Below are positions 5,006 through 61,960 of a stretch of 64,000 nucleotides of DNA, piece by piece. The DNA comes from Cordylochernes scorpioides (Eukaryota > Arthropoda > Arachnida > Pseudoscorpiones > Chernetidae). The notes under the pieces were generated by a model. It had not been told where the DNA came from. It was given only the letters and a program-made list of their open reading frames with translations, and ran no database searches. Both the position numbers and the translations under genes were made by a program. How positions within the stretch are numbered: position 1 is the stretch's first letter; every line of letters starts with the position of its first letter. Where the stretch lies: positions 95,931,794 to 95,995,793 of the forward strand of contig CP092872.1 of assembly GCA_030710605.1 (NCBI GenBank), written 5' to 3'.

Positions 5006-5755
5006 AGCCAGCCTATGGATCCATGCTATGGTTCAGCCAGGACTCCACAGTCTCATTGACTAAGAAACGTGCAGACGAAGGGGCATTTTACATTTTTTCC
5101 CAGGCGATAATTGGCTGCCAACTAGGCAGATCTGTCGTCCTTGAACCTGATGACTTCATCACCAAAGCGGACATCCCGCAAAAAGCCACAAATTGAACAA
5201 GGTTTCTACCACCCGTGACAACCACAAAAAACCCGGCGGTTTCACGTTAAGTTCATTGGAGCGACCACAAAACTGCTTGCCATCAAATAGGTCTGCTTCC
5301 GAAAGCCATTAGCAGACAGGGCGTGGCAAAGAATTCTCGGAGTTTCGTCAGTTTTTTGCTGTCCCCCCCGTCAAACGAGCCAAAGACATTTCTCTAGTAC
5401 CCTTTCCTGAGAGGGAACGCGAGAACGGCCGAAGAAAAAAAGAGTTTTTTTACAGTACCCCTTCTCTAAAAGGGAGGTTGATTGTATCGGACCTGACGTC
5501 TCAATCAAACAAGAAGACAATGGAAGGTTATCATTACTCCTCCGGGCTCCCATTGGCCGGCCGTGCTGCCTCGCGTGCAACAAGCCCTCCCAACAGATTG
5601 TCACAAGCTCATCCTACAGCGGAGGTCCTCAGATGGCAATCTTGTTCCTGTAATTTCCATTTTTTAATTCGGTGGAATGAAATAATCTTCAGATGAAATT
5701 ACTTCATCTCATTGATACAGAACCTTCGTGACCTTTCTGTCGCTCATCACTATGC
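5006..5755. other. Unique sequence without a recognised gene
   Basis: Less AT-rich than its surroundings. It has short ORFs of up to 77 codons on both strands, but none shows a recognisable domain. Nothing further is supported. Confidence 0.4.
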
Positions 5756-5759
5756 TAGA

Positions 5760-8700
5760 CCCCTTGCTATTGTACCGCCCAACAAGTATCACAGGGGTCA
5801 TGCTAATATTCTCTGTATCCTTCCTATTGCAGTAGTTGTACCGCCCAACAAGTATCACGAGGGCCATGCTAATCTTCTCTGTTATCTTCCTATTGCAGTA
5901 GTTGTACCGCCCAACAAGTATCACGAGGGCCATGCTAATCTTCTCTGTATCCTTCCTATTGTAGTAGTTGTACTGCCCAACAGGTATCACAGGAGCCATG
6001 CTAATCTTCTCTGTATCCTTCCTATTATAGCAGTTGTACCGCCCAACAAGTATCACAGGGGCCATGCTAATCTTATCTGTTTACTTCCTATTGTAGTAGT
6101 TGTACCGCCCAACAAGTATCACAGGGACCATGCTAATCTTCTCTGTATCCTTCCTATTGTAGTAGTTGTACCGCCCAACAAGTATCACAGGGACCATGCT
6201 AATCTTCTCTGTACCCTTCCTATTGTAGTAGTTGTACCGCGCAACAAGTATCACAGGGGCCTTGCTAATCTTATCTGTTTACTTCCTATTGTAGTAGTTG
6301 TACCGCCCAACAAGTATCACAGGGACCATGCTAATCTTCTCTATATCCTTCCTATTGCAGTAGTTGTACCGCCCAACAAGTATCACAGGGACCATGCTAA
6401 TCTTTTCTGTATCCTTCCTATTGCAGTAGTTGTACCGCCCAACAAGTATCACAGGGGCCATGCTAATCTTATCTGTTTACTTCCTATTGTAGTAGTTGTA
6501 CCGCCCAACAAGTATCACAGGGGCCATGCTAATCTTCTCTGTATCCTTCCTATTGCAGTAGTTGTACCGCCCAACAAGTATCACAGGGGCCATGCTAATC
6601 TTTTCTGCATCCTTCCTATTGCAGTAGTTGTACCGCCCAACAAGTATCACAAGGGCCATGCTAATCTTCTCTGTATCCTTCCTATTGTAGTAGTTATACC
6701 GCCCAACAAGTATCACAGGGGCCATGCTAATCTTCTCTGTATCCTTCCTATTGCAGTAGTTGTACCGCCCAACAAGTATCACAGGGGCCATGCTAATCTT
6801 ATCTGTTTACTTCCTATTGTAGTAGTTGTACCGCCCAACAAGTTTCACAGAGACCATGCTAATCTTATCTGTTTACTTCCTATTGTAGTAGTTGTACCGC
6901 CCAACAAGTATCACAGGGGCCATGCTAATCTTATCTGTTTACTTCCTATTGTAGTAGTTGTACCGCCCAACAAGTATCACAGGGACCATGCTAATCTTTT
7001 CTGTATCCTTCCTATTGCAGTAGTTGTACCGCCCAACAAGTATCACAAGGGCCATGCTAATCTTCTCTTTATCCTTCCTATTGCAGTAGTTGTACCGCCC
7101 AACAGGTATCACAGGGGCCATGCTAATCTTCTCTGTATCCTTCCTATTGTAGTAGTTGTACCGCCCAACAAGTATCACAGGGAACATGCTAATCTTCTCT
7201 TTATCCTTCCTATTGTAGTAGTTGTATCGCCCAACAAGTATCACAGGGGCCATGCTAATCTTCTCTGTATCCTTCCTATTGTAGTAGTTGTACCGCCCAA
7301 CAAGTATCACAGGGACCATGCTAATCTTATCTGTATCCTTCCTATTGTAGTAGAGGTACCGCCCAATACGTATCACAGGGACCATGCTAATCTTATCTGT
7401 ATCCTTCCTATTGTGTAGTAGTTGTGCCGCCCAACAAGTATCACAGGGGCCATGCTAATCTTCTCTGTATCATTTCTCTTGTAGTAGTTGTACTGCCCAA
7501 CAAGTATCACAGGGACCATGCTAATCTTCTCTGTATCCTTCCTATTGTAGTAGTTGTACCGCCCAACAAGTATCACAGGGGCCATGCTAATCTTCTCTGT
7601 ATCCTTCCTATTGTAGTAGTTGTACCGCCCAACAAGTATCACAGGGACCATGCTAATCTTATCTGTATCCTTCCTATTGTAGTAGTTGTACCGCCCAACA
7701 AGTATCACAGGGGCCATGCTAATCTTCTCTTTATCCTTCCTATTGTAGTAGTTGTACCGCCCAACAAGTATCGCAGGGACCATGCTAATCTTCTCTGTAA
7801 CCTTCCTATTGTAGTAGTAGTACCGCCCAACAAGTATCGCAGGGACCATGCTAATCTTCTCTGTAACCTTCCTATTGTAGTAGTAGTACCGCCCAACAAG
7901 TATCGCAGGGACCATGCTAATCTTCTCTGTAACCTTCCTATTGTAGTAGTAGTACCGCCCAACAAGTATCGCAGGGACCATGCTAATCTTATCTGTATCC
8001 TTCCTATTGTAGTAGTTGTACCGCCAAGCCAGTATCACAGGGGCCATGCTAATCTTCTCTGTATCCTTCCTATTGTAGTAGTTGTACCGCCCAACAAGTA
8101 TCACAGGGACCATGCTAATCTTATCTGTATAGTTCCTGTTGTAGTAGTTGTACCGCCAAGCCAGTATCACAGGGGCCATGCTAATCTTCTCTGTATCCTT
8201 CCTATTGTAGTAGTTGTACCGCCAAGCCAGTATCACAGGGACCATGCTAATCTTCTCTGTATCCTTCCTATCGTAGTAGTTGTACCGCCAAGCCAGTATC
8301 ACAGGGGTCATGCTAATCTTCTCTGTATCCTTCCTATTGTAGTAGTTGTACCGCCAAGCCAGTATCACAGGGGCCATGCTAATCTTCTCTGTATCCTTCC
8401 TATCATAGTAGTTGTACCGCCAAGCCAGTATCACAGGGGCCATGCTAATCTTCTCTGTATCCTTCCTATTGTAGTAGTTGTACCGCCAAGCCAGTATCAC
8501 AGGGACCATGCTAATCTTCTCTGTATCCTTCCTATTGTAGTAGTTGTACCGCCAAGCCAGTATCACAGGGGCCATGCTAATCTTCTCTGTATCCTTCCTA
8601 TTGTAGTAGTTGTACCGCCCAGCCAGTATCACAGGGGTCATGCTAATCTTCTCTGTATCATTCCTATTGTAATAGTTGTACCGCCCAGCCAGTATCACAG

Positions 8701-9032
8701 GGGTCATGCTAATCTTCTCTGTATCCTTCCTATTGTAGTAGTTGTACCGCCAAGCCAGTATCACAGGGGCCATGCTAATCTTCTCTGTATCCTTCCTATT
8801 GTAGCAGTTGTACCGCCAAGCCAGTATCACAGGGGCCATGCTAATCTTATCTGTTTACTTCCTATTGTAGCAGTTGTACCGCCAAGCCAGTATCACAGGG
8901 GTCATGCTAATCTTCTCTGTATCCTTCCTATTGTAGTAGTTGTACCGCCCAGCCAGTATCACAGGGGCCATGCTAATCTTCCCTGTATCCTTCCTATTGT
9001 AGCAGTTGTACCGCCCAGCCAGTATCACAGCA
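5760..9032 (-). repeat. U6 snRNA-derived satellite, 66-bp unit, about 49 copies
   Basis: Head-to-tail array of a 66-bp monomer. Read on the minus strand, each unit runs CTTGTTGGGCGGTACAACTA, CTACAATAGGAAGGATACAG, AGAAGATTAGCATGGCCCCT, GTGATA. ACAGAGAAGATTAGCATGG and the following CCCCTG are the invariant heart of U6 snRNA: the ACAGAGA box that contacts the 5' splice site and the AGC catalytic triad. The monomer aligns without gaps to the U6-like sequence at 26310-26410 with about 8 mismatches in 60 bases (counted by eye), covering roughly U6 nucleotides 4-69. The 3' third of U6 is absent. The left part carries the variant CCAACAAG and the right part (from about 8020) CCAAGCCAG or CCCAGCCAG on the plus strand. 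A 2-bp insertion near 7414 breaks phase. Because 66 is divisible by 3 and few units contain stops, very long ORFs appear on both strands; I do not regard them as genes. Confidence 0.93.
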
Positions 9033-13371: not shown

Positions 13372-14046
13372 CACTCTTGGACAAAAGTTACGTAAGTGGA
13401 AAGTATTTGATGTCGTCGGTTGTCTGTTTTTTGAATGAGACAGAGGCAATTTTGTTTACACTTGATTATCTCGTATGTCTTCAATAAAGGTCACTGCAAT
13501 ATATTTCAAATTATTGTCTGAATCCCGATATGCATGCTAAATGGTACAACTTCCTTAAGTTTTGTCCATGAGTGTATATTGGTTATCTCGTGTGTCTTCA
13601 ATAAAGTTCACTGTAATATCTTTCAGAGTTATTGTCTGAATCCCGATATACATGCTGAAAGGTACAACTTCCTTAAGTTTTGTCCATGAGTGTATATTGG
13701 TTATCTCGTGTGTCTTCAATAAAGTTCACTGTAATATCTTTCAGAGTTATTGTCTGAATACCGATATACATGCTGAAAGGTACAACTTCCTTAAGTTTTG
13801 TCCATGAGTGTATATTGGTTATCTCGTGTGTCTTCAATAAAGTTCACTGTAATATCTTTCAGAGTTATTGTCTGAATACCGATATACATGCTGAAAGGTA
13901 CAACTTCCTTAAGTTTTGTCCATGAGTGTATATTGGTTATCTCGTGTGACTTCAATAAAGGTCACTGTAATATCTTTCAGAGTTATTGTCTGAATCCCGA
14001 TATACATGCTGAAAGGTACAACTTCCTTAAGTGTTGTCCATGAGTG
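13372..14046 (-). mobile_element. MITE family M tandem array, 5 monomers, minus orientation
   Basis: Left terminus CACTCTTGGACAAAAGTTAC, right terminus TTTTGTCCATGAGTG, so the ends are inverted repeats. Between them lies a T-rich unique part (13400-13460) and about five 118-bp monomers, each ending TTAAGTTTTGTCCATGAGTG at 13575, 13692, 13810, 13928 and 14046. Every monomer holds CTTCAATAAAGGTCACTG and CAGAGTTATTGTCTGAATCC. Each monomer repeats one terminus of the element, giving a satellite built from part of a MITE. Confidence 0.88.
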
Positions 14047-14329
14047 TAAATGTGATTAAAGAAAGGAAAGAGGAATGTATCTGATGATAATCATGAGGAA
14101 ATGTTGTGACCATCGGTGAAGTAGGTCGAGACTATTGATGAGACAGCCTGCCATCAATAATTCCATCAGTACTTCCTCCAGAGCAAATATAGCGGGACAG
14201 GTCCTTCCTTCCAACGTCAGTGTTACATGATCTCTACATTTTGTGACATGCTCACACACATCGATTGATAGGTTCACAATAGATGAGAGTTTTCGAATTA
14301 GTCTCTTTCTCAGCGTGTCTAATCATCCT

Positions 14330-17992: not shown

Positions 17993-19002
17993 TGTCATAA
18001 TTTGTATATAATTGTATGCCCCCCGACCCACTATGTATGTACCATGTATGATTTTCAAAGATTTAATAAAGAATAAGGTGACTGGAGGAAAGAAAGTAAC
18101 AAAAAGACATAGGAAGTAGATCTAGAAGAGAACATAATTATTAATAACGTCACAGTTAACCTTCTGACCCCGGGAACCCTGCGAGCTAAGTTTAAACCAA
18201 TACTTCCTGGCAAAGCAGGACGTATCTGGTTACCAGAAGTTATAAAAGTTTGAGAGACGCCCAATTTCCGGAACAAGACCGGACGTATTCTGATAACGCG
18301 GAAGTAAATAAAGTCGAAATAGCACCCGACACTTCCTATCAGGCAGACCATATCTTTCACCAAAGAGAACCGCGGTCCAATTAGAAAGTCTCCCCTTAAG
18401 TAGGTCAACCAATAGGAAAACGGGGACGTTCCATTCTCGACCAATCAAAAAGAAACTGAGTCTTGGTGTTAAATCGAAAAGCAAGAATGGTCAGTTGTTC
18501 ACTCGTTCTCGCCGAGTTCGGACCTAGTAGTGTTTGGCTCCCATCTGAACAACATCTACAGTTCTTCATTCACTCCCACCGAGTTCAGACCCAGTCATCG
18601 ACTCGACCCCACCAAGGTAATGTCTGCTCACTAGAGACCTCTCTCTCCGCTCATTTCATCTAAATCCAATCATCGCCATGTGATCAACTAATTAATCATC
18701 AAAAACCGCTCTGCCTTTCTCAAAAGCTTTCTTTCCTCCAACCCGTTGCCTTATATTTTCAACCATCAAGTGTCTCGGCTTATTTCCCCTGTGTGTAATC
18801 CTTTCACTCAGCCACCACGACTGCATCATCCACCACGACTGCATCATTCACCACGACTGCGTCACCACTTCAACAACCTTCAACACCAAGAGTAAGGTTT
18901 CCCAACATAGTAGAATACCACAGCTATTCCTAAAGTCGACAGGATTCTACAACAGTGTAATACATCAAATATTGCAGTGTAATAACTTTGGATTATATTA
19001 CA
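17993..19002 (+). mobile_element. 5' LTR of Ty3/gypsy-type retrotransposon
   Basis: A 1010-bp direct repeat starting TGTCATAATTTGTATATA and ending GGATTATATTACA (TG...CA). Target duplication TACA lies at 17989-17992 and 24512-24515. AATAAA near 18064 is a candidate polyadenylation signal. The matching LTR at 23502-24511 looks identical in the stretches compared, including identical ORFs through it. The ORFs inside the LTR are not genes. Confidence 0.95.
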
Positions 19003-19021
19003 TAGAGTCGACAGGATAAAG

Positions 19022-19498
19022 ATGGAAATTAGCCCAGGCGCCAGCAAAACAAAAGGCGATGACAAACCGAGAGAGAAGAAACTGGCAACGAGCGGAAAGA
19101 AACTGACAACGAACGAAGCGACAAGACATACCCTGGCGACGGTAATTTTAGAACTGACCGCCGCGCTACAAGGGGCAAGATCCACGCAAGGTGAGACGGA
19201 GTTCCGGAGCGCCACCCCCGGGGCAACCGACGCCCGCACCGCCGGTACGTGTCCGAACAACCTGACGCCCACCGAGGAGTCGCCACCCGCCATGCCGTAC
19301 CCGTGCACCCGGAAGCAATCCACGCGACACGGGCCCAGTGTACCGACAACGCGATCCACTCGAATGGAAGCAGTACAAATGACTAGATTTCCCTTTCAAT
19401 TGCGCGGACAGTGCAAACGGTCCCGATCCGGCCCAACAGACATTCCAAGCCAGCCATCCCAAGCCGAAGACGCCACAGTGGAGCCCTTTCGAGACTGA
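19022..19498 (+). CDS. Putative gag-region ORF of the LTR element
   Basis: A 158-codon ORF beginning just inside the 5' LTR. The product is hydrophilic, rich in Thr, Arg, Pro and Lys, starts MEISPGASKTK and ends AEDATVEPFRD. I see no CCHC zinc knuckle and no clear capsid domain, and it is much shorter than a usual gypsy Gag (several hundred residues). Its position ahead of a protease-like segment argues for a gag remnant. GC content is higher here than in the flanking sequence. The start is the first ATG after the LTR; there is no other support for it. Confidence 0.5.
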   Translation: MEISPGASKTKGDDKPREKKLATSGKKLTTNEATRHTLATVILELTAALQGARSTQGETEFRSATPGATDARTAGTCPNNLTPTEESPPAMPYPCTRKQSTRHGPSVPTTRSTRMEAVQMTRFPFQLRGQCKRSRSGPTDIPSQPSQAEDATVEPFRD

Positions 19499-19524
19499 GG
19501 TAGGCAATCCACCCAATGACACCA

Positions 19525-19767
19525 TCAAATTGACTTTTGACTTGTATCTGACCCAGGACCTACCATGTACCTTTCTAATTGAACCAGACGCAGGTTCGAA
19601 CATATTGCCGTATCATTTATACAATAGATTAAAAGCACAACTTCCCAACTTAAGTATTAAAAAAACCTTCCCTTGATCTATCCACCCTAAATAGTTTTAC
19701 GAAAATAATAGGACATTTAACTCTCCCTCTGACAATAGGCCAAATAACCCGTAGAGAGAACTTCCAC
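19525..19767 (+). pseudogene. Aspartic protease remnant, frameshifted
   Basis: The translated segment contains LTFDLYL, then FLIEPDAGSNILP and YHLYNRL, matching the retropepsin layout. The catalytic D-T/S-G is D-A-G-S here. That frame stops at 19674-19676; the continuation GHLTLPLTIGQ, then FHVVNASLPFGVL, lies in the frame of the downstream long ORF, so a frameshift near 19672 separates the halves. Family members cleave the Gag-Pol polyprotein. The A for T/S change and the frameshift make activity doubtful. Confidence 0.65.
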
Positions 19768-21690
19768 GTGGTAAATGCATCCTTGCCATTTGGAGTTCTT
19801 ACCTTAAAAACCCTTTATCAGTATAAATTAAAATTAAATTATAATCACGGCACTATTTTCCAACTTGGCGTCCCATTATCTAATACTATCTACCACTTTA
19901 AACATGTATCAAATGAATGCAAGCACGGGCTAGGCCAAAACCTGTCCCAAAGGACTCGCACAGCACCCAAAGCTTTCACACATGGAAACCCTTGCCTGCA
20001 TTCATTGCCCAAACCCCAAATATTTACATGCCACCATTCTAATCTCACACCACGCAACTTTTCACTCAATCCAATTGCCAATACTTTATGCCCACAACAC
20101 ATAAAACCACAGGACGGTTTTCACACTCACAACACACGCACCCATACGTCGTCACACAACGGTAACACACACAACCAGCCCAACAAGCGCGACACTCACA
20201 CCAAAAGGCGACACCAACCAGTAAACACATGTACAATCGTTAAGAATAATACAATCATCCCGTCTACACAAAACATAGAAAAAATTCACGCCACCAAACA
20301 ACCACACAATCGAAAAACATTACGATCTTTCCTAAAAGCTGTGAACGCCTATAAAGAGTTCATTCCGGACCACGCCCGCTTGCGGACGCCACTTGTCAAC
20401 CTTCTAAAAAAGGATGTCATGTGGGTCTGGGATGACGAATGCCAGAAAGCATTCACTAACCTGAAAGAAAACCTTACCACACACCCCACATTACACCTTT
20501 ACCAGGAAGGTCTGCCATGCCAGGTGTACTGTAACACCTCAACATTCAGCATTACAGGCGTTCTTAAACAAGTCTACCCTGATGGGAAGACATACACCGT
20601 TCAACATTTCAGCCGATCTCTGCGTAGTCACGAGCGAAATTATTCAGACTTGGAACTACAATGCCTAGCCATTGTGGAAAGTGTGGATAATTTCCGCACC
20701 TGTCTAATGGGCAGAAAGTTTACAATATTTTCTGACCATCCCGCATTGCAGTGGTTGAAAGAGATCAAAGCTCCGTCAGGCAGATTGTTTCGATGGAGGT
20801 TAAGATTGTCAAGATACGAATATGAGGTCCGTAGCATAAATGGAGTACAACAATATGAAACGGGCGTTGGAACTCGTATCCCATTTTGTGGCTTTCTAGA
20901 TGCGCCACTCATAAAGAGCCAACAGTCTTCTCCACCGGGAAAATCTCGCGTGACTATGGATCACAATAAACTGCGCACCGTCTCCCGAAAAGGAGTACTT
21001 AAAACTATAGTCCCAAGTTCACTTACAACCAGACTTCTTAAATCCGTACACACTCAACACCACCATCCAAACATCTCCAAGATGACGAGACTCATCTCGT
21101 CACAATATTATTGGCAGAACATGACACAAGACATCGCAAAACAGGTAAAAACCTGCCCCACCTGCCGATTCGCTAGAAGAATCGATGAATACAACCAACC
21201 TTCACGTAAAAATACCGACACAGGCACCAAAGCAAAACAAAATTCGTACATAAAGCACAGCGTACACACAACACAAACAATGCCAAAATTACACCACCCA
21301 CGTCAGAACGATCACACAGCTCAACCTAAATCAATTACCACCGACATATCGCTAATAAAACCATTAACGATCAAACAGGAGAACTGCGAACCTACCAATC
21401 ATCTAAATTCTACAATTAATAAGGTTCAGGCAAATATTTCAGAGTCCCCATTTACAAAAATCTGGATAAACATGGGGCAATATCCTATCTTTCATCTGAT
21501 TTTTATCCTTTGTTTGTTAGTTCTACCATACAACTGTATCCCAATTTTATTCATTAATTACTTGTTTATCTATACCATGCCCGCTCATAAAATCTTCGAA
21601 CTACAAGAGGCAGTTTTTAATTTTGGACAAACTTTAGGAAACATCTTTGCAGAAAACCTAAATAGACTCCGAAGAGATAGAAGTAATTGA
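19768..21690 (+). CDS. Internally deleted Pol ORF: RNase H and integrase zinc domain
   Basis: A 640-codon ORF. Roughly: residues 1-60, end of the protease region; 60-185, low-complexity His/Thr/Asn-rich linker; 185-235, the end of the reverse transcriptase (FLKAVNAYKEFIPDHA, PLVNLLKK, then WDDECQKAF); 245-350, RNase H (VLKQVYPDGKTY, HFSRSLRSHERNYSDLELQC, FSDHPALQWL); 420-475, the integrase HHCC zinc domain (HTQHHHPN, QYYWQNM, CPTC). The reverse transcriptase palm with its Y-x-D-D motif is missing, as is the integrase D,D35E core. The first RNase H aspartate is Asn (YCNTST). The last 120 residues include a hydrophobic stretch near WINMGQYPIFHLIFILCLLV and are unrelated to Pol as far as I can tell. 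The ORF cannot support autonomous replication, yet it is open throughout. The ATG may not be the true start. Confidence 0.75.
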   Translation: MVNASLPFGVLTLKTLYQYKLKLNYNHGTIFQLGVPLSNTIYHFKHVSNECKHGLGQNLSQRTRTAPKAFTHGNPCLHSLPKPQIFTCHHSNLTPRNFSLNPIANTLCPQHIKPQDGFHTHNTRTHTSSHNGNTHNQPNKRDTHTKRRHQPVNTCTIVKNNTIIPSTQNIEKIHATKQPHNRKTLRSFLKAVNAYKEFIPDHARLRTPLVNLLKKDVMWVWDDECQKAFTNLKENLTTHPTLHLYQEGLPCQVYCNTSTFSITGVLKQVYPDGKTYTVQHFSRSLRSHERNYSDLELQCLAIVESVDNFRTCLMGRKFTIFSDHPALQWLKEIKAPSGRLFRWRLRLSRYEYEVRSINGVQQYETGVGTRIPFCGFLDAPLIKSQQSSPPGKSRVTMDHNKLRTVSRKGVLKTIVPSSLTTRLLKSVHTQHHHPNISKMTRLISSQYYWQNMTQDIAKQVKTCPTCRFARRIDEYNQPSRKNTDTGTKAKQNSYIKHSVHTTQTMPKLHHPRQNDHTAQPKSITTDISLIKPLTIKQENCEPTNHLNSTINKVQANISESPFTKIWINMGQYPIFHLIFILCLLVLPYNCIPILFINYLFIYTMPAHKIFELQEAVFNFGQTLGNIFAENLNRLRRDRSN

Positions 21691-23501
21691 AGGATGACCA
21701 ACCAATGTCGGAGAAGTCACACTCCAAAAACAAGATCTGAGCCGCACCAAAAAATAAATAAGCGGAAGGAAGAGTGAATTTTGAGACACCGCGACAGGAA
21801 GTGTAGTCCGCGGCGATAAATTCGGCCTATGCAAACAAAGCGGAGCGCCTCGTCCGATCTCCAATTTCATTCCCTCTCTTTTGCCCGACACACACCACTT
21901 CCGTATCTCTAATTACAATGAGAAGGTCCCCTATTGAGGTCAACTGGGAACCTCCCTATGCCACCGATTTTTTGGATTCCAGTTCGAGTATACATATCGA
22001 TTTTTACCACCCAATTCCACATCCACAAGACAACACATAGAACTCGCTCACACATTTCTTACACAACAGACTTCTAACATTTTTTCACAACACACACAAA
22101 GACAAAAAATTACACATAAAGGTTATATAGATTTCCATGTCTCCTGTACACATAGCATAAACGCACTTGAGGGCTAGAATCACGTTTTCACCTAAGTGTC
22201 GCTACAGATGAGACAAAAAAATTTATAGGGCATAATTGAGCAATTAAAACATTTATAGGGCATAATGGAGCAATCAATACATTTAGATCAGGGCATGTAG
22301 ATACCAAAGGGCTCAAACCAATACACCTTATTTTTCATATTAATCATTTTCATTATTTTCTCTCAATTAAAATTTAAATATATAATCAATTTATTCAACT
22401 TATTATCACTTTTAATCATTAATTATCATTTTTTTTTCCAATTAGTTTATATTATCATTTTATTTATCAATTATCATTCTATTTACCACTTAGCTTATAT
22501 TAGTATAACTTCATTATCAACGAAAACTCATTGGTTTTCGGTTACACTAAAAACATTAAATCATCCTATTTTTGAAACCTTATTTTTCATTTTTCCTTTT
22601 TTTTTTTTTCATTCAACCAAGCACTCAACTTTGATTTCGCTCAAAAACTTTTTATTTTTATTTGATTTCAAAATACCTTATGAAATTTTATTTTTATTTT
22701 TATTTTGATTTCTCAAAAGCCCTAATAAAATTCCCTCGGTTTCCATTCCCAATTTCGAGCTAGAATATGGTTAGGCATTTTTCCTTTTTTTTTCTCACCA
22801 TGCACCAAGCATTCACTTTGATTTCTTCCAACTTTTTATATTACTTTGATTTCTCAAAAGACCTTATGAAATTTCCTCGAATTCTTTTCCAAAATTCGAG
22901 CAAAAAAGTAACTAGGCATTTTCCCTTATCACCATGCAACAAAACAATTTTTCTATTTCAACCAAACACATTTAATTTTGATTTCATTCAACTATTCTTA
23001 TTTTATTTTGTTTTGATTTCAAAGAACCTTATGAAATTTCCTCGGTTTCTTTTCTCAAAATTCGAGCAAAAAAGTAACTAAGCAGTTGTCTTTGTCACCA
23101 TGCAACAAAATATCTTTCTTTTTCAACCAAACATTCAATTTTGATTTCATTCAACTATTTTTATATTATTTTTATTTTGATTTCAAAAGCCTTAATAGAA
23201 CTCCCTCGATTTTTTTTCCAATTTCAAGTAGTAATTAGTTAGGCGCATTTTCTTTTCTTTTTAAATCCACTATGTACCATAGCATTCATTTTGATTTCTT
23301 ACAATTAAAAAATTTTTGATTTCTATTAATTATACTCAACCTATATCATCAACACCATTCTATTTTACTTATTATATCGCCACCAATGCTTGTATATAGA
23401 CTCAATACCCACAACTAATTTTCCCACAAAATTATTTTTCACCTTACAGAATTCTCTCAGGCTAACCCCTTCTTGAATTCTTCACATGTAGGGGGCGCAT
23501 C
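21691..23501 (+). other. 3' non-coding region of the LTR element with T-rich repeats
   Basis: No coding capacity. From about 22560 to 23260 there are diverged repeats of about 140 bp containing TTGATTTCATTCAACTATT, CCTTATGAAATTTCCTCGG and AAATTCGAGCAAAAAAGTAA. Immediately before the 3' LTR, GTAGGGGGCGCATC may serve as the polypurine tract. Confidence 0.7.
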
Positions 23502-24511
23502 TGTCATAATTTGTATATAATTGTATGCCCCCCGACCCACTATGTATGTACCATGTATGATTTTCAAAGATTTAATAAAGAATAAGGTGACTGGAGGAAA
23601 GAAAGTAACAAAAAGACATAGGAAGTAGATCTAGAAGAGAACATAATTATTAATAACGTCACAGTTAACCTTCTGACCCCGGGAACCCTGCGAGCTAAGT
23701 TTAAACCAATACTTCCTGGCAAAGCAGGACGTATCTGGTTACCAGAAGTTATAAAAGTTTGAGAGACGCCCAATTTCCGGAACAAGACCGGACGTATTCT
23801 GATAACGCGGAAGTAAATAAAGTCGAAATAGCACCCGACACTTCCTATCAGGCAGACCATATCTTTCACCAAAGAGAACCGCGGTCCAATTAGAAAGTCT
23901 CCCCTTAAGTAGGTCAACCAATAGGAAAACGGGGACGTTCCATTCTCGACCAATCAAAAAGAAACTGAGTCTTGGTGTTAAATCGAAAAGCAAGAATGGT
24001 CAGTTGTTCACTCGTTCTCGCCGAGTTCGGACCTAGTAGTGTTTGGCTCCCATCTGAACAACATCTACAGTTCTTCATTCACTCCCACCGAGTTCAGACC
24101 CAGTCATCGACTCGACCCCACCAAGGTAATGTCTGCTCACTAGAGACCTCTCTCTCCGCTCATTTCATCTAAATCCAATCATCGCCATGTGATCAACTAA
24201 TTAATCATCAAAAACCGCTCTGCCTTTCTCAAAAGCTTTCTTTCCTCCAACCCGTTGCCTTATATTTTCAACCATCAAGTGTCTCGGCTTATTTCCCCTG
24301 TGTGTAATCCTTTCACTCAGCCACCACGACTGCATCATCCACCACGACTGCATCATTCACCACGACTGCGTCACCACTTCAACAACCTTCAACACCAAGA
24401 GTAAGGTTTCCCAACATAGTAGAATACCACAGCTATTCCTAAAGTCGACAGGATTCTACAACAGTGTAATACATCAAATATTGCAGTGTAATAACTTTGG
24501 ATTATATTACA
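23502..24511 (+). mobile_element. 3' LTR of Ty3/gypsy-type retrotransposon
   Basis: Same length (1010 bp) and, by eye, same sequence as 17993-19002. Followed by the TACA target duplication at 24512-24515. Confidence 0.95.
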
Positions 24512-26309: not shown

Positions 26310-26410
26310 GTACACACTTGTTCGGCGGTACATATACTGAAATTGGAATCATACAGAGAAGATTAGCATGGCCCCTGCGCAAAGATGACATACAAATTCG
26401 TAAAGCGTTC
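26310..26410 (+). ncRNA. U6 snRNA-like sequence, probably a pseudogene
   Basis: Over about 100 bases this follows U6 spliceosomal RNA: GTACACACTTGTTCGGCGGT (5' stem-loop), ACATATACTGAAATTGGAAT, CATACAGAGAAGATTAGCAT, GGCCCCTGCGCAAAGATGAC, then ACAAATTCGTAAAGCGTTC. ACAGAGA, the AGC triad and the internal stem-loop region are present. Doubts: GATGACAT and GTAAAG differ from the usual GATGACAC and GTGAAG, the 5' stem-loop is short by one base, no TATA box is seen at about -25, and the oligo-T end that terminates Pol III is absent. Instead the sequence runs straight into a MITE terminus at 26416. It is best read as a U6 pseudogene or a U6 chimera. Confidence 0.88.
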
Positions 26411-26415
26411 TTCGA

Positions 26416-27090
26416 CACTCACGGACAAAACTTAAGGAAGTGGAGAGTTTTTGATGTCACAGGTCTTTTTTTTTTTTTAGGAGACAGGCAATTTTATTCA
26501 CTTACTCTCGTGTGTCTTCAATAAAGGTCACTGTAATATCTTTCAGAGTTATTGTCTCAATCCTGATATACATGGTAAAAGGTACAAACTTCCTTAAGTT
26601 TTGTCCATGAGTGTATATTGGTTATCTCATGTATCTTCAATAAAAGTCACTGTAATATCTTTCAGAGTTATTGTGTGAATCCCAATATACACGCTAAAAG
26701 GTACAACTTTCTTAAGTTTTATCCATGAGTGTATATTGCTTATCTCGTGTGTCTTCAATAAAGGTCACTGTAATATCTTTCAGAGTTATTGTCTCAATCC
26801 CGATATACATGTTAAAAGGTACAACTTCCTTAAGTTTTATCCATGAGTGTATATTGCTTATCTCGTGTGTCTTCAATAAAGGTCACTGTAATATCTTTCA
26901 GAGTTATTGTCTAAATTACGATATACATGTTAAGAGGTATAACTTCCTTAAGTTTTGTCCATGAGTGTATACACACTTGGTTATTTCGTGTGTCTTCAAT
27001 AAAGGTCACTGTAATATCTTTCAGAGTTATTGTCTGAATCCCAATATACACGCTAAAAGGTACAACTTCCTTAAGTTTTGTCCATGAGTG
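26416..27090 (-). mobile_element. MITE family M tandem array, 5 monomers, fused to U6
   Basis: Left terminus CACTCACGGACAAAACTTAA only a few bases after the U6-like sequence, a T-run (26465-26478), then about five monomers ending TTTTGTCCATGAGTG or close variants near 26614, 26732, 26850, 26972 and 27090. The right terminus is the inverse of the left. Same family as 13372-14046. Confidence 0.88.
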
Positions 27091-27850
27091 TATATTATTT
27101 ACTGATTTCTTACTTCCCATTCGACCGTTTATTCTCAAGGTTCTCAGTGTGGAATCGAAGCTTTAAAAAGGTATTCTCCATCTTTATAGTCTTCCTCTTT
27201 TCTTCTTCCATCCGTCCCCTTATGTCTACATCCGTCCGTGTCTTTGTTCCCTCAGCGCGACAGATGGAGTCAAAGTCAAACATTGCTTTCCAGGTCAGAC
27301 CATCTTGGCTTTTGTTACAAAGTGTTTCTCGGTATACTCCTTCCCTCTGTTGATCTTCAGGGGATGATCTATTGTCCATACGTAAACCTTCTGTTCTTCC
27401 GTTGTATTGTCGTTGAAACTGCTGTGTTTGGAGAGAAACATACGGCTTTCGCTCTTAGCCAATAGGAGATAAGAATAGAAGATAAAAGGTACGTGCGCAC
27501 CTTCCTTTGTATCGTAAACACACCGATATTTCTTCTTCTTCTTCTTGACTGTACACCCGCCATATTGCTTGAAATAACAAACACTTCGATATCAGAGGAG
27601 TTTTCACTTTTTCTATTTTCAACAACAAAAAGTTTTATTAAGACCTTTTCGGATCTTGTGGAGAAACTGAACAAACTGCTCTTCACCTTATCTATGACTG
27701 TCCGAACTTTACAGAAGTGAGACATCGATTGTTCCCTGATTTAAATGATCTAATTCTTTTACCTTAGCCACTTTGTCAATATTCATTTTATGAACTCTGT
27801 TGATTAATACATGTAAGGTTATATTATAAGTTACTTTATGTATCATTTAC
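27091..27850. other. Unique sequence without recognised gene
   Basis: Overlapping short ORFs on both strands (up to 118 codons) have no recognisable domain. A short run of TTC repeats lies near 27531-27546. Confidence 0.4.
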
Positions 27851-28000
27851 GAACGGAAAAATACGTCCAGGGTAGCCTAGTGGACATGGCATCTGCCCGG
27901 TAAGCGGAACATTGTGGGTTCGATTTCCCATCCCTGGACACTTTTATTTTTCCGTTCGTCATTACTCTTCATAATTCACCCTCTCATACCTCATCCAAAA
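27851..28000 (+). mobile_element. tRNA-like short element family T, copy 1
   Basis: GTCCAGGGTAGCCTAGTGGA at 27865 opens a 75-base tRNA-like sequence closing with CCTGGAC at 27939. It has an A-box-like TAGCCTAGTGG and a B-box-like GGTTCGATTTCC; the T stem is mismatched. It is enclosed by GAACGGAAAAAT and the inverse ATTTTTCCGTTC, followed by CATTACTCTTCATAATTCAC and CTCATACCTCATCC, all shared with the copy at 41348. Not a functional tRNA gene by structure. Confidence 0.75.
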
Positions 28001-40020: not shown

Positions 40021-40449
40021 CACTCATAGACTTAAGGAAGTTGTACCATGTATATCAGGATTCAGACAATAACTTTGAAAGATATTACAGTGACCTTTAT
40101 TGAAGACACACGAGATAACCAATATACACTCATGGACAAAACTTAAGGAAGTTGTACCTTTTACCATGTATATCAGGATTCAGACAATAACTTTGAAAGA
40201 TATTACAGTGACCTTTATTGAAGACACACGAGATAACCAATAAACACTCATGGACAAAACTTAAGGAAGTTGTACCTTTTACCATGTATATCGGGATTTA
40301 GACAATAACTCTGAAAGATATTACAGTGACCTTTATTGTAGATACACGAGATAACCAAGTGTGAACAAATTGCTTCCGTCTCCTTAAAAAAAAAAGAGGA
40401 CTGACAATATCAAAAACTTTCCACTTCCTTAGGTCTTGTCCATGAGTGT
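40021..40449 (+). mobile_element. MITE family M, 3 monomers with both termini
   Basis: Monomer starts at 40021, 40127 and 40244, each beginning CACTCATGGACAAAACTTAA (the first decayed) and containing CAGACAATAACTTTGAAAGA and AGTGACCTTTATTGAAGACA. After the third come GTGTGAACAAATTGCTTCCG, an A-run, and the right terminus CCACTTCCTTAGGTCTTGTC, CATGAGTG, the inverse of the left. Confidence 0.9.
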
Positions 40450-41347: not shown

Positions 41348-41500
41348 AACGGAAAAATACGTCCAGGGTAGCCGAGTGGACAAGGCACCTGCCCGGTAAG
41401 CAGAAGGGTGTGGGTTCGATTCCCGCCCCTGGACACTTTTTATTTTTCCGTTCTCCATTACTCTTCATGTTTCACCTTTCCATACCTCATCTTCAAAGTT
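41348..41500 (+). mobile_element. tRNA-like short element family T, copy 2
   Basis: A 74-base tRNA-like part at 41361-41434: GTCCAGG with CCTGGAC as acceptor stem, A box TAGCCGAGTGG, anticodon stem CTGC with GCAG around loop CCGGTAA (anticodon GGT, but C instead of T at position 33), T arm GTGGG, TTCGATT, CCCGC and B box GGTTCGATTCC. One extra base lies before the acceptor 3' strand. It is enclosed by GAACGGAAAAAT and ATTTTTCCGTTC, then CATTACTCTTCATG and CCATACCTCATC. Better preserved than the copy at 27851 but still not a standard tRNA. Confidence 0.78.
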
Positions 41501-43430: not shown

Positions 43431-44108
43431 AGCTAACAAAGGCCCAGTGAGAGACCACAACCAGCTCCTGGGATGTTACAACAGACACACAAAGATGTTA
43501 CAACAGACTTCCATAGACAGTAAAGATGTTAAAATAACCCCCACATCTCACGCGGCGAGCTAACAAAGGCCCAGTGAGAGACCACAACCAGCTCCTGGGA
43601 TGTTACAACAGACACACAAAGATGTTACAACAGACTTCCATAGACAGTAAAGATGTTAAAATAACCCCCACATCTCACGCGGCGAGCTAACAAAGGCCCA
43701 GTGAGAGACCACAACCAGCTCCTGGGATGTTACAACAGACACACAAAGATGTTACAACAGACTTCCATAGACAGTAAAGATGTTAAAATAACCCCCACAT
43801 CTCACGCGGCGAGCTAACAAAGGCCCAGTGAGAGACCACAACCAGCTCCTGGGATGTTACAACAGACACACAGAGATGTTACAACAGACTTCCATAGACA
43901 GTAAAGATGTTAAAATAACCCCCACATCTCACGCGGCGAGCTAACAAAGGCCCAGTGAGAGACCACAACCAGCTCCTGGGATGTTACAACAGACACACAA
44001 AGATGTTACAACAGACTTCCATAGACAGTAAAGATGTTAAAATAACCCCCACATCTCACGCGGCGAGCTAACAAAGGCCCAGTGAGAGACCACAACCAGC
44101 TCCTGGGA
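43431..44108 (+). repeat. 127-bp tandem repeat, about 5 copies
   Basis: Unit: GAGCTAACAAAGGCCCAGTG, AGAGACCACAACCAGCTCCT, GGGATGTTACAACAGACACA, CAAAGATGTTACAACAGACT, TCCATAGACAGTAAAGATGT, TAAAATAACCCCCACATCTC, ACGCGGC. Copies are almost identical, indicating recent expansion. Each contains two copies of the 22-bp motif that expands next door. Confidence 0.92.
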
Positions 44109-45868
44109 TGTTATAACAGACACACAAAGATGTTACAACAGACACACAGAGATGTTACAACAGACACACAGAGATGTTACAACAGACACACAGAGATGTT
44201 ACAACAGACACACAGAGATGTTACAACAGACACACAGAGATGTTACAACAGACACACAGTTACAACAGATACACAGAGATGTTACAACAGACACACAGAT
44301 ATGTTACAACAGACACACAGGGATGTTACAACAGACACACAGAGATGTTACAGCAGACACACAGAGATGTTACAACAGACACACAGAGATGTTACAACAG
44401 ACACACAGAGATGTTACAGCAGACACACAGAGATGTTACAACAGACACACAGAGATGTTACAACAGACACACAAAGATGTTACAACAGACACACAGAGAT
44501 GTTACAACAGATACACAGAGATGTTACAACAGACACACAGAGATGTTACAACAGACACACAAAGATGTTACAACAGACACACAGAGATGTTACAACAGAC
44601 ACACAAAGATGTTACAACAGACACACAGAGATGTTACAACAGATACACAGGGATGTTACAACAGACACACAGAGATGTTACAACAGACACACAGAGATGT
44701 TACAACAGACACACAGAGATGTTACAACAGACACACAGTTACAACAGATACACAGAGATGTTACAACAGACACACAGAGATGTTACAGCAGACACACAGA
44801 GATGTTACAACAGACACACAGAGATGTTACAACAGACACACAGAGATGTTACAACAGACACACAGAGATGTTACAACAGACACACAGAGATGTTACAGCA
44901 GACACACAGAGATGTTACAACAGACACACAAAGATGTTACAACAGACACACAGAGATGTTACAACAGACACACAAAGATGTTACAACAGACACACAGAGA
45001 TGTTACAACAGACACACAGATATGTTACAACAGACACACAGAGATGTTACAACAGACACACAAAGATGTTACAACAGACACACAGAGATGTTACAACAGA
45101 CACACAAAGATGTTACAACAGACACACAGAGATGTTACAACAGACACACAAAGATGTTACAACAGACACACAGAGATGTTACAACAGACACACAGAGATG
45201 TTACAACAGACACACAGAGATGTTACAACAGACACACAGAGATGTTACAACAGACACACAGAGATGTTACAACAGACACACAGAGATGTTACAACAGATA
45301 CACAGAGATGTTACAACAGACACACAGAGATGTTACAACAGACACACAGAGATGTTACAACAGACACACAGTTACAACAGACACACAGGGATGTTACAAC
45401 AGACACACAGATATGTTACAACAGACACACAGAGATGTTACAACAGACACACAGGGATGTTACAACAGACACACAGAGATGTTACAACAGACACACAGGG
45501 ATGTTACAACAGACACACAGAGATGTTACAACAGACACACAGGGATGTTACAACAGACACACAGAGATGTTACAACAGACACACAGGGATGTTACAACAG
45601 ACACACAGTTACAACAGACACACAGGGATGTTACAACAGACACACAGGGATGTTACAACAGACACACAGGGATGTTACAACAGACACACAGAGATGTTAC
45701 AACAGACACACAGAGATGTTACAACAGACACACAGAGATGTTACAACAGACACACAGGGATGTTACAACAGACACACAGTTACAACAGACACACAGAGAT
45801 GTTACAACAGACACACAGAGATGTTATAACAGACACACAGAGATGTTACAACAGACACACAGGGATGT
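44109..45868 (+). repeat. 22-bp minisatellite, about 80 copies
   Basis: GATGTTACAACAGACACACA plus GA, with single-base variants (AAAGATG, GGGATG, GATATG, TACAGCAG) and recurrent shortened units reading CACAGTTACAACAGA, which fit a higher-order period. The unit length leaves remainder 1 modulo 3 and has no stop, so all three forward frames stay open and encode the same periodic sequence rich in LQQTHRDVTTDTQRCYNRHT. The ORFs of 551-650 codons are therefore by-products, not genes. The array ends in the same GGCCCAGTGAGAGACC segment as the 127-bp unit. Confidence 0.94.
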
Positions 45869-46589: not shown

Positions 46590-46755
46590 AGGTTTGGTTA
46601 GGTTAGGATAGGTTAGTTTGAGTTCATTTTACATTCCGCTTAGGTTAGGTTCAGGTTAGGTTAGGTTAGGTTTAGGTTAGGTTCAGGTTAGGTTAGGTTC
46701 AGGTTAGGTTAGGTTAGGTTTAGGTTAGGTTAGGTTAGGTTCAGGTTAGAGTTAG
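46590..46755 (+). repeat. Interstitial TTAGG-type telomeric-like repeat
   Basis: GGTTAGGTTAGG blocks with variants GGTTCAGG, GGTTTAGG and GGATAGG; a short unrelated stretch lies near 46615-46640. TTAGG is the ancestral arthropod telomere repeat. Flanking sequence is not subtelomeric in any evident way. Confidence 0.8.
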
Positions 46756-47300: not shown

Positions 47301-47437
47301 CATCCGTACAGGGGCGGCATCACCAGTAAAGTGTTTTTACTGGGGTAATACACAGTGCATCGTACTGATGCAGAGATAGAGAGAGATGTTCCTCTTTTGA
47401 TGCATGAATATCATCCTCCTGCAACTTTATATTGTAT

Positions 47438-48120
47438 TTATACGATAATAACAAGGCGAAGGAAGACGAGTATCTTTATTGGTGCATAAGAGCGAGCTTT
47501 CGGGCAAAAGCCCTTCGACTGGCAAAATATAACGACACTATGAAGGACATCGATGGCTGTAGAGAATATATACACATATTAATTTACATAAATATAGAAA
47601 AAAGCATGCAAATGGGCAATTTAACTATTTGTAACAATGAGAGGTAAAAAATAAAAATGGATAAAAATGAAATAGATATCCTATAGGGCAATAGAAGAGA
47701 TGCCCGAACATCAGCTGAAGGAAAGAAATATCAATGAGGCACAATATATGGCTGCAATGGGACATCAGGTATACAAATCTTTTGTATACCTGATGTCCCA
47801 TTGCAGCCATATATTGTGCCTCATTGATATTTCTTTCCTTCAGCTGATGTTCGGGCATCTCTTCTATTGCCCTATAGGATATCTATTTCATTTTTATCCA
47901 TTTTTATTTTTTACCTCTCATTGTTACAAATAGTTAAATTGCCCATTTGCATGCTTTTTTCTATATTTATGTAAATTAATATGTGTATATATTCTCTACA
48001 GCCATCGATGTCCTTCATAGTGTCGTTATATTTTGCCAGTCGAAGGGCTTTTGCCCGAAAGCTCCCTCTTATGCACCAATAAAGATACTCGTCTTCCTTC
48101 GCCTTGTTATTATCGTATAA
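47438..48120. repeat. Large near-perfect palindrome, 340-bp arms, 3-base loop
   Basis: Arms 47438-47777 and 47781-48120 around TCT, within GTATACAAATCTTTTGTATA. I find about one mismatch (GAGCGAGC against GAGGGAGC near 47492 and 48064). Mirror-image ORFs of 71-77 codons occur on both strands as a result. Each arm contains GCTTTCGGGCAAAAGCCCTT, the short motif found in several other repeats here. It could be a foldback element, a recent inverted duplication, or an assembly or library artefact. Confidence 0.9.
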
Positions 48121-48179
48121 GTTCATTCCAGGAAGAATTACTCTACTATTATTTATATTGTATATTTACATATTTTAAA

Positions 48180-53120: not shown

Positions 53121-53793
53121 ACACTCATGGACAAAACTTAAGGAAGTTGTACCTTTTAGCATGTATATCGGGATTGAGACAATAACTCTGAAAGATATTA
53201 CAGTGATCTTTATTGAAGACACACGAGATAACCAATATGCACTCATGGACAAAACTTAAGGAATTTGTACCTTTTAGCATGTATATCGGGATTCAGACAA
53301 TAACTCTGAAAGATATTACAGTGACTTTTATTGAAGACACACGAGATAACCAATATACACTCATGGACAAAACTTAAGGAAGTTGTGCCTTATAGCATGT
53401 ATATCGGGATTGAGACAATAACTCTGAAAGTTATTACAGTGACGTCTATTGTAGACACTCGAGATAACCAATATGCACTCATGGACAAAACTTAAGGAAT
53501 TTGTACCTTTTAGCATGTATATCGGGATTCAGACAATAACTCTGAAAGATATTACAGTGACTTTTATTGAAGACACACGAGATAACCAATATACACTCAT
53601 GGACAAAACTTAAGGAAGTTGTACCTTATAGCATGTATATCGGGATTGAGACAATAACTCTGAAAGTTATTACAGTGACGTCTATTGAAGACACTCGAGA
53701 TAACTAAGTATGAATAAAATTGTTTCTGTCTCTTTAAAAAAAAAGAGGCGAAATCAAGTATTTTCCACTTCCTTAAGTTTTGTCTATGAGTGT
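53121..53793 (+). mobile_element. MITE family M tandem array, 5 monomers
   Basis: Monomers start at 53122, 53240, 53358, 53476 and 53594 (118-bp spacing), followed by the A-run and right terminus TTCCACTTCCTTAAGTTTTG, TCTATGAGTG. Monomers 2 and 4 share AAGGAATTTGTACC; monomers 3 and 5 share CCTTATAGCATG and AGTGACGTCTATTG, so the array has duplicated as a two-monomer block. Confidence 0.92.
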
Positions 53794-55621: not shown

Positions 55622-56026
55622 GTCGGTCGTCTTTCTTTTTTGAAGAAGAAGAAAATAGAGGCAATTATGTTCACACTTGGTTATCTCGTGTGTCTTCAAT
55701 AAAGGTCACTGTAATATCTTTCAGAGTTATTGTCTCAATCCCGATATACATGGTAAAAGGTACAACTTCCTTAAGTTTTGTCCATGAGTGTATATTGGTT
55801 ATCTCGTGTGTCTTCAATAAAGGTCACTGTAATATCTTTCAGAGTTATTGTCTCAATCCCGATATACATGGTAAAAGGTACAACTTCCTTAAGTTTTGTC
55901 CATGAGTGTATATTGGTTATCTCGTGTGTCTTCAATAAAGGTCACTGTAATATCTTTCAGAGTTATTGTCTGAATCCCGATATACATGGTAAAAGGTACA
56001 AATTCCTTAAGTTTTGTCAGTGAGCG
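55622..56026 (-). mobile_element. MITE family M array, minus strand, left terminus missing
   Basis: Starts inside the element (GTCGTCTTTCTTTTTTG) and has three monomers with TTAAGTTTTGTCCATGAGTG; the last end is decayed to TTTTGTCAGTGAGCG. Confidence 0.85.
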
Positions 56027-60339: not shown

Positions 60340-61960
60340 GTTCTTCTGCACTTCCTTGGCCACCTGCTGCGCCGAGATTCTGGATCTCTCAGCGGATCAC
60401 ATCCTTGTCCACCTGCTGAGTCAAGATTCTGGAACTCTTAGCGGATCATCACTTCCTTGGCCACCTGCTGCGCCGAGATTCTGGAACTCTCAGCGGATCA
60501 CATCCTTGTCCACCTGCTGAGTCAAGATTCTGGAACTCTTAGCGGATCATCACTTCCTTGTCCACCTGCTGAGCCGAGATTCTGGATCTCTCAACGGATC
60601 ACATCCTTGTCCACCTGCCGAGCCAAGATTCTGGATGTCTTAGCGGATCACATCCTTGTCCACCTGCTGAGCCAAGATTCTGGATGTCTTAGCGGATCAC
60701 AACCTTGTCCACCTGCTGAGTCAATATTCTGGAACTCTTAGCGGATCATCACTTCCTTGGCCACCTGCTGAGTCAAGATTCTGGAACTCTTAGCGGATCA
60801 CATCCTTGTCCACCTGCTGAGTCAAGATTCTGGAACTCTTAGCGGATCACATCCTTGCCCACCTGCTGAGTCAAGATTCTGGAACTCTTAGCGGATCACA
60901 TCCTTTTCCACCTGCTGAATCAAGATTCTGGAACTCTTAGCGGATCATCACTTCCTTGGCCACCTGCTGAGTTTCTGGAACTCTTAGCGGATCATCACTT
61001 CCTTGGCCACCTGCTGAGTCAAGATTCTGGAACTCTTAGCGGATCACATCCTTGTCCACCTGCTGAGTCAAGATTCTGGAACTCTTAGCGGATCACATCC
61101 TTGCCCACCTGCTTGTCAAGATTCTGGAACTCTTAGCGGATCACATCCTTTTCCACCTGCTGAATCAAGATTCTGGAACTCTTAGCGGATCATCACTTCC
61201 TTGGCCACCTGCTGAGTTTCTGGAACTCTTAGCGGATCATCACTTCCTTGGCCACCTGCTGAGTCAAGATTCTGGAACTCTTAGCGGATCATCACTTCCT
61301 TGGCCACCTGCTGAATCAAGATTCTGGAACTCTTAGCGGATCATCACTTCCTTGGCCACCTGCTGAGTTTCTGGAACTCTTAGCGGATCATCACTTCCTT
61401 GGCCACCTGCTGAGTCAAGATTCTGGAACTCTTAGCGGATCATCACTTCCTTGGCCACCTGCTGAATCAAGATTCTGGAACTCTTAGCGTATCACATCCA
61501 TGTCCACCTGCTGAGCCAAGATTCTGGATGTCTTAGCGGATCATCACTTCCTTGGCCACCTGCTGAGTCAAGATTCTGAATATATCAGTGGGATCACCAC
61601 TCCCTTGTCTACCATCTGAGCCAATATTTTGGATCTCTCAGTGGAATCATCATATCCTTGGCCACTTAATGTGCCAAGATTCTGTATTTATCAGAGGATC
61701 TTCACATTATTGACCATCTGCTTAGCTAAAATACTGGATATATAAGCGAATCATCACTTCCTTGGCCACCAGCTGAGCCAAGATTCTGGAACTATTAGCG
61801 AATTATCACATCCTTGAACAGTTAATGTGCAAAGTTTCTGGATATATCAGTGGGATCATCACTTCCTTAGCCACCGCCTGGGCTAAGATTCTGGATTTCT
61901 CAGCTTATCATCAATCATATCTTATCCACTTTATGAGCCAAGATTCTGGACTTCACATCC
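60340..61960 (+). repeat. Minisatellite of about 50 bp, more than 25 copies
   Basis: Unit CTCTTAGCGGATCACATCCT, TGTCCACCTGCTGAGTCAAG, ATTCTGGAA, alternating with a variant GATCATCACTTCCTTGGCC. Larger blocks repeat (for example 60900-61080 and 61150-61280). Copies decay to the right from about 61560. Confidence 0.92.

Follow-up and report, generated by a model that had tools for sequence, protein, structure and literature searches.

The window analysed here, a 64,000-nt stretch of the Cordylochernes scorpioides genome which lies on a contig of 99.6 Mb at a distance of 3.6 Mb from one end, carries on its minus strand a long array of 66-bp units whose derivation from U6 snRNA is strongly supported (Table 1). 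Tandem Repeats Finder (TRF) counts 49.4 copies with 93% matches, bearing out the approximately 49 head-to-tail minus-strand units of the initial annotation, and splitting the array by unit yields 48 units of 66 bp, one of 68 bp and, at one end, a truncated unit. The array lacks a native U6 5' end at its 5' edge, and the native U6 3' part is not recognisable at its 3' edge (score of 16, null mean of 14.9); past the latter, at window positions ~5609-5664, lies a weak U6-like stretch that 19 of 2000 shuffles match equally well. A separate full-length U6 copy elsewhere in the window is probably a pseudogene, as it has no T-run terminator. The remaining features include an apparent LTR retrotransposon, further long arrays and a 118-bp tandem repeat that is perhaps part of a mobile element.

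Table 1. Features of the 64,000-nt window, in window coordinates
Feature	Position	Strand	Basis
66-bp array derived from U6 nt ~5-70, ~49 units	5770..9030	-	TRF, RF00026 stretches, unit split
5'-side part of the array (U6 sense), unit starts mostly ACTGGC	7970..9025	-	unit list, variant count
5' edge of the array, CTGTG, the end of a truncated preceding unit	9026..9030	-	unit split
3' edge of the array, last unit truncated and decayed	5740..5789	-	unit split, score
Separate full-length U6 copy, 84.6 bits; probable pseudogene	26310..26419	+	cmscan
Apparent LTR retrotransposon	18055-24400		by eye
ORFs of the LTR candidate with the same translation	18055-18444, 23564-23953
Long ORF between them	19654-21690
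118-bp tandem repeat, both orientations	13462-14048, 26501-27096, 40044-40358, 53122-53712, 55677-56018
Array of 22 bp x 81, unit unlike U6	44107-45868
Array of 52 bp x 31, unit unlike U6	60349-61913
Interstitial, imperfect (TTAGG)n, arthropod-type telomere repeat	46590-46755
Near-perfect inverted repeat, 345-nt arms, 99% complementary, 3-nt spacer	47433-48125
tRNA-Thr (GGT) gene or copy	27865-27941	+
tRNA-Thr (GGT) gene or copy	41361-41436	+

U6 identity and variation of the array units

At E<=0.01, cmscan aligns 44 stretches of the array to the Rfam U6 model RF00026, all on the minus strand and mostly covering model positions 1-65 (39 stretches, with 1-105 in two, 1-60 in two and 1-56 in one); at the gathering score, 17 of the 18 U6 matches in the window fall inside the array. 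Chance resemblance to U6 is ruled out, since the score of 77 that the monomer consensus reaches against the Rfam consensus is attained by none of 5000 dinucleotide shuffles (mean of 15.3, maximum of 30); the units of six other tandem repeats from the window score 15-22. The consensus also aligns without gaps to nt 5-70 of a native U6 copy on contig C20 (L032), so that the earlier assignment to U6 nucleotides 4-69 was off by no more than a base or two.

The satellite consensus differs from this native copy at 10 of 66 positions, nine of them in monomer positions 1-37, where three fall on the junction, and one in 38-66. The concentration of substitutions in the upstream half that was described earlier thus holds for fixed divergence, but not for variation among units, which is even along the monomer: 4.6% in positions 1-35 against 5.5% in 36-66 for 48 window units, and 3.5% in 1-37 against 4.2% in 38-66 for the 684 ungapped of 872 aligned units at 21 loci, where the outermost positions seem invariant as an effect of local alignment. 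The contrast between the two halves thus goes back to the founder unit and does not reflect ongoing constraint on the arrays.

The initial annotation further proposed that RNA from the array, with its repeated ACAGAGA boxes and AGC triads, could compete, decoy-like, for U4 or 5' splice sites. Judged from the sequence, such a competitor would be highly improbable even though most units keep the U6 core: no constraint on the ACAGAGA/AGC core is seen within arrays, either in the 48 window units or in the 684 units from 21 loci, the sixth base of ACAGAGA is not G in 14 of the 48 window units, and low-variation sites do not cluster (18,085 of 20,000 permutations give a run as long). A conserved functional core inside the arrays was accordingly rejected, its half of the monomer varying as much as the upstream half.

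A period of 66 also equals 22 codons, and long frames are indeed open across the array (573 and 628 codons on the plus strand, 493 on the minus). Nonetheless, a tandem protein-coding repeat has next to no probability and was rejected, since changes among window units in the open frames are mostly non-synonymous (synonymous to non-synonymous, 25:121 and 26:120) and their counts resemble those of frames with stops (24:115, 25:116, 52:89 and 49:90); furthermore, unit lengths of 61, 65 and 68 bp, as well as a spacing of 63 bp, are seen among family members. Neither of the two signs of function tested in the arrays, constraint on the core and coding potential, was found.

A dispersed family with a common junction

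The genome searched comprises 2.62 Gb in 24 contigs. Native U6 loci on contigs C20, C3 and C6 begin with GTACTCGCTTG or GTACACGCTTG, have TATATAAG upstream and a T run downstream, and a native 27-base U6 stretch occurs 1350 times genome-wide; the 365,745 first-look U6 candidates are unscored and are not taken as a count. A second kind of U6 tandem, joined differently from the 66-bp satellite, is seen at L035 (C1:170085900-170086450) and L038 (C12:5292350-5292750), where full-length U6 copies stand in head-to-tail rows linked by T runs. The exact monomer and U6-core patterns gave no matches in viral contigs; a contig filed under a Verrucomicrobiaceae MAG (L001) carries a U6 core 19-mer, probably through eukaryotic contamination.

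A 19-base pattern spanning the satellite junction, AGCATGRYCCCTGTGATAC, has 13,393 matches genome-wide (6429 + 6964), and its reversed control has none. In the fetched arrays and the window this pattern detects 487 places against 872 profile-detected units, a recovery that puts the family at roughly 24,000 units, 1.6 Mb or 0.06% of the genome, as estimated from a sample biased to the window's subfamily. In twenty fetched regions, chosen as the best matches to a window query (L010-L029), array length runs from 3 units to 146 or more. Long head-to-tail arrays are thus found at many loci, as in satellite DNA, and the window array is one locus of a dispersed, retro-derived family. A possible variant array lies at C1:1004292-1004509, where junction matches are spaced 73, 63 and 63 bases apart rather than 66.

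The earlier description of tandem partial U6 lacking its 3' part fits the window array, whose units stop at nt ~70, but not the short members of the family, which end in a single copy of the U6 3' part. Among 24 multi-unit runs, five (L011, L012, L021, L026 and L028) have a recognisable U6 3' part downstream, scored above the 99th percentile of 1988 random stretches, and in L011 it is only 62 bases from the array. Intermediate loci show the derivation directly: in these short elements, 2 to ~28 copies of the 66-bp block stand between a native U6 5' end and a native U6 3' part. A pattern of junction, one unit and native 3' continuation has 116 exact matches, and one of native 5' end, one unit and junction has 71; controls for both gave 0, and both counts are lower bounds, as the patterns demand exact letters. 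Pairing the listed ends (57 of the 71 5' ends, up to C20:7.9 Mb) gave 11 elements of 2-28 units. In the 12 elements with both ends read, the units number 2, 4, 5, 5, 5, 5, 6, 7, 9, 10, 13 and 15.

We retrieved 14 such loci (L043-L056) from 100 listed of the 116 matches, favouring native-like last units. L046, L047, L052 and L053 are pure native multimers (2, 5, 5 and 6 units), L044 and L054 are of satellite type, and L048, L049, L050, L055 and C20:72888598 mix both kinds. The last of these was found by the U6 model rather than by the junction; it spans seven units, opening with a U6-like 5' start, GTACAAGCTTG, and closing with a complete U6 3' part. The native body CATATACTAAAATTGG is found in the outer units and the satellite body CAACTACTACAATAGG in the middle three, with one mismatch allowed in each. 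Native, mixed and satellite-type multimers all carry the non-native junction CCCCTGTG|ATAC, so that insertions with different flanks have one non-native join in common; retrieval of L043-L056 by the junction pattern makes this sharing partly a matter of construction, and other junctions may exist.

Satellite-type units in the short elements are nearly as similar between elements (0.958) as within them (0.966), which argues against each element having grown from a single unit of its own and suggests that satellite-type units had probably already been made when the short elements arose. In addition, the native-satellite-native order of units seen in L048, L049 and C20:72888598 suggests template switching or conversion.

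Spread of short elements and growth of long arrays

Direct repeats flank many of the short elements. We compared the stretch before the 5' end, set by eye, with the stretch from the 3' part onward in 12 testable elements (11 L loci and C20:72888598; L043, L045 and L051 were left out, having no native 5' end in the fetched stretch). Exact repeats of at least 8 nt occur in eight of the 12, against 3 of 132 mismatched pairs, and are absent in L048, L055, L056 and C20:72888598. In L044, L046, L047, L052, L053 and L054 the repeat and the recognisable 5' end are no more than 1-3 nt apart; the repeat of L050 sits in a CT run, L047 is also CT-rich, and in L049 the edge repeat has one mismatch, the longest exact match (8 nt) being elsewhere. 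An alignment-score version of the comparison, which began too late to detect the L052 repeat, placed 7 of 12 above the 95% level and 1 of 12 above the highest mismatched pair, and a version with automatic end-calling placed 7 of 10 loci above the 95% level, misplacing L051 and missing L047, L052 and L055. Furthermore, L044, L047, L049, L053 and L054 lack an A tail, and their U6 part stops around GTTC directly ahead of the repeat (earlier in L052). Repeats and tailless GTTC ends together fit target-primed reverse transcription by a LINE, and LINE-type retrotransposition is the most likely way in which the internally duplicated U6 copies spread. The available text of PMC4476161 describes mammalian U6 pseudogenes as inserted by LINE machinery, with target-site duplications a hallmark of LINE insertion, and notes that U6 is often involved in template switching.

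Such duplications next to U6 sequence mark the short elements (8 of 12) as U6 retropseudogenes but are not found at the window array, which has neither native U6 ends nor flanking repeats and whose history is therefore read from its relatives. These show that long arrays change length and homogenise in place. L010 and L022 have flanks in common (99.5% and 95.5% over 200 nt), yet hold 49 and 20 units; L013 and L020 have a downstream flank in common (97%), yet hold 25 and at least 146. (L043 and L044, with 3' flanks 76% alike over 388 columns, were not used as copies of one insertion.) Within the window array, neighbours resemble one another more closely than when the unit order is shuffled (0 of 2000 shuffles), and two variants, present 7 and 11 times, the latter being ATACTGGCTTGGCGGTAC in its exact form in the array's 5'-side part, occur in none of 34 other loci; a third variant is found also once in L020. 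Homogenisation within arrays, as in satellite DNA, is thus evident.

Taken together, we favour, with a probability of about 0.78, a satellite descended from a retrotransposed U6 snRNA through duplication, LINE-type dispersal and subsequent growth in place. An early U6 copy would have gained an internal tandem duplication of nt ~5-70, creating the non-native junction; LINE-type target-primed reverse transcription would then have placed copies comprising a native 5' end, several units and a native 3' part at many sites, with direct repeats as flanks. Unequal exchange or slippage may have multiplied and homogenised the inner units at some of these sites, giving rise to long arrays such as the 49-unit array of the window, while the original ends decayed. 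Against this explanation stand the four of 12 elements without a repeat, the position of the L047 and L050 repeats in CT sequence, the displaced exact match of L049, the alignment-score comparison with its single element above the highest mismatched pair, and the failure to find a multi-unit U6 with a clear promoter.

That last point comes from a search upstream of the arrays. U6 promoters lie upstream. Eight arrays have TATATA upstream; the gap from TATATA to GCTTG is 21-27 in seven, of which one, on C8, is an internal unit; in L050, where TATATAAT stands inside a CT repeat, it is 30. None of these eight has TATATAAG at the native gap of 30 bases before a multi-unit copy. Of 47 positive-control matches (four of them overlapping repeats), seven, ordinary U6 loci, have TATATAAG at a gap of 30 and two have TATATAGG at a gap of 29. 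A promoter-bearing multi-unit master gene was therefore sought by promoter pattern, with none clear among the eight matches; multimers could have come from a gene since lost or divergent, could have arisen in reverse transcription, or could reflect units entering single U6 copies by conversion. The lack of a clear promoter on any array found also speaks against the splicing decoy, and with units that end at nt ~70 and no array bearing TATATAAG at the native gap, the window array does not have the makeup of a functional U6 gene. The present arrays are probably inert, with no role in splicing.

It is also possible that the family spread at the DNA level only, through segmental duplication, extrachromosomal circles or gene conversion into pre-existing single U6 retrocopies, with the flanking repeats dating from the single-copy insertions. 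DNA-level copying does occur, as the flanks in common between L010 and L022 and between L013 and L020 attest, conversion of inner units fits the native-satellite-native order, and the promoter search turned up no clear promoter-bearing multimer. We nevertheless consider this route unlikely as a sole explanation, as L046, L047, L052 and L053 are pure native multimers that have flanking repeats and the same non-native junction while holding no satellite-type units that could have served as conversion donors.

Within the retrotransposed satellite reading, we tentatively entertain the further idea, somewhat less probable than not, that U6 RNA multimers exist or existed and were themselves retrotransposed, forming a non-autonomous element in which the number of internal repeats varies, either in the course of a jump or from one jump to the next. 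The native-satellite-native order would then be explained by a switch of template between native and satellite-type RNAs in reverse transcription, and a single family would be at once transposon and satellite.

Relation to known systems

The origin of a satellite usually has to be reconstructed once its traces have been lost. This one genome holds the parent gene together with single retrocopies, dimers, elements of five units and arrays exceeding 100 units, and the shared junction tag allows the steps to be ordered and dated. An essential, highly conserved spliceosomal RNA can thus give rise to a satellite, and in such genomes thousands of array units may inflate U6 counts made with Rfam.

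The snRNA-headed SINEs, reportedly described by Kojima in 2015, are said to be non-autonomous retroelements derived from snRNA with a further body and tail; in the elements read here, both ends are plain U6. The LINE-made U6 pseudogenes of mammals are likewise U6 copies with target-site duplications, but the available text of PMC4476161 does not use the words tandem, dimer or satellite, whereas the copies here are internally multiplied. U6 is also listed among tandem multigene families in the available text of PMC7754599. No U6-derived satellite appears in the titles or abstract beginnings of the literature matches listed, which is weak evidence of absence given that subscription literature lies mostly outside their scope.

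The closest known kind is the SINE-derived satellites (sSats) of squamates (PMC10702118), and we file the present case with them among retroelement-derived satellites. As far as the available text of that study goes, sSats are likewise head-to-tail repeats of a partial retroelement unit, in many cases flanked on one side by an end of the parent, and comprise a few to hundreds of homogenised units with locus-specific variants; snake sSat units are 67 nt long. Their parent is a SINE, whereas here it is U6 snRNA, so that the present satellite works alike without being a member of that class. The same text does not contain the phrase target site duplication, and in discussing how the first duplication arose it prefers unequal recombination. 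By comparison, the short multi-unit copies described here, with both parental ends, flanking repeats and one common junction, point to spread as multimers.
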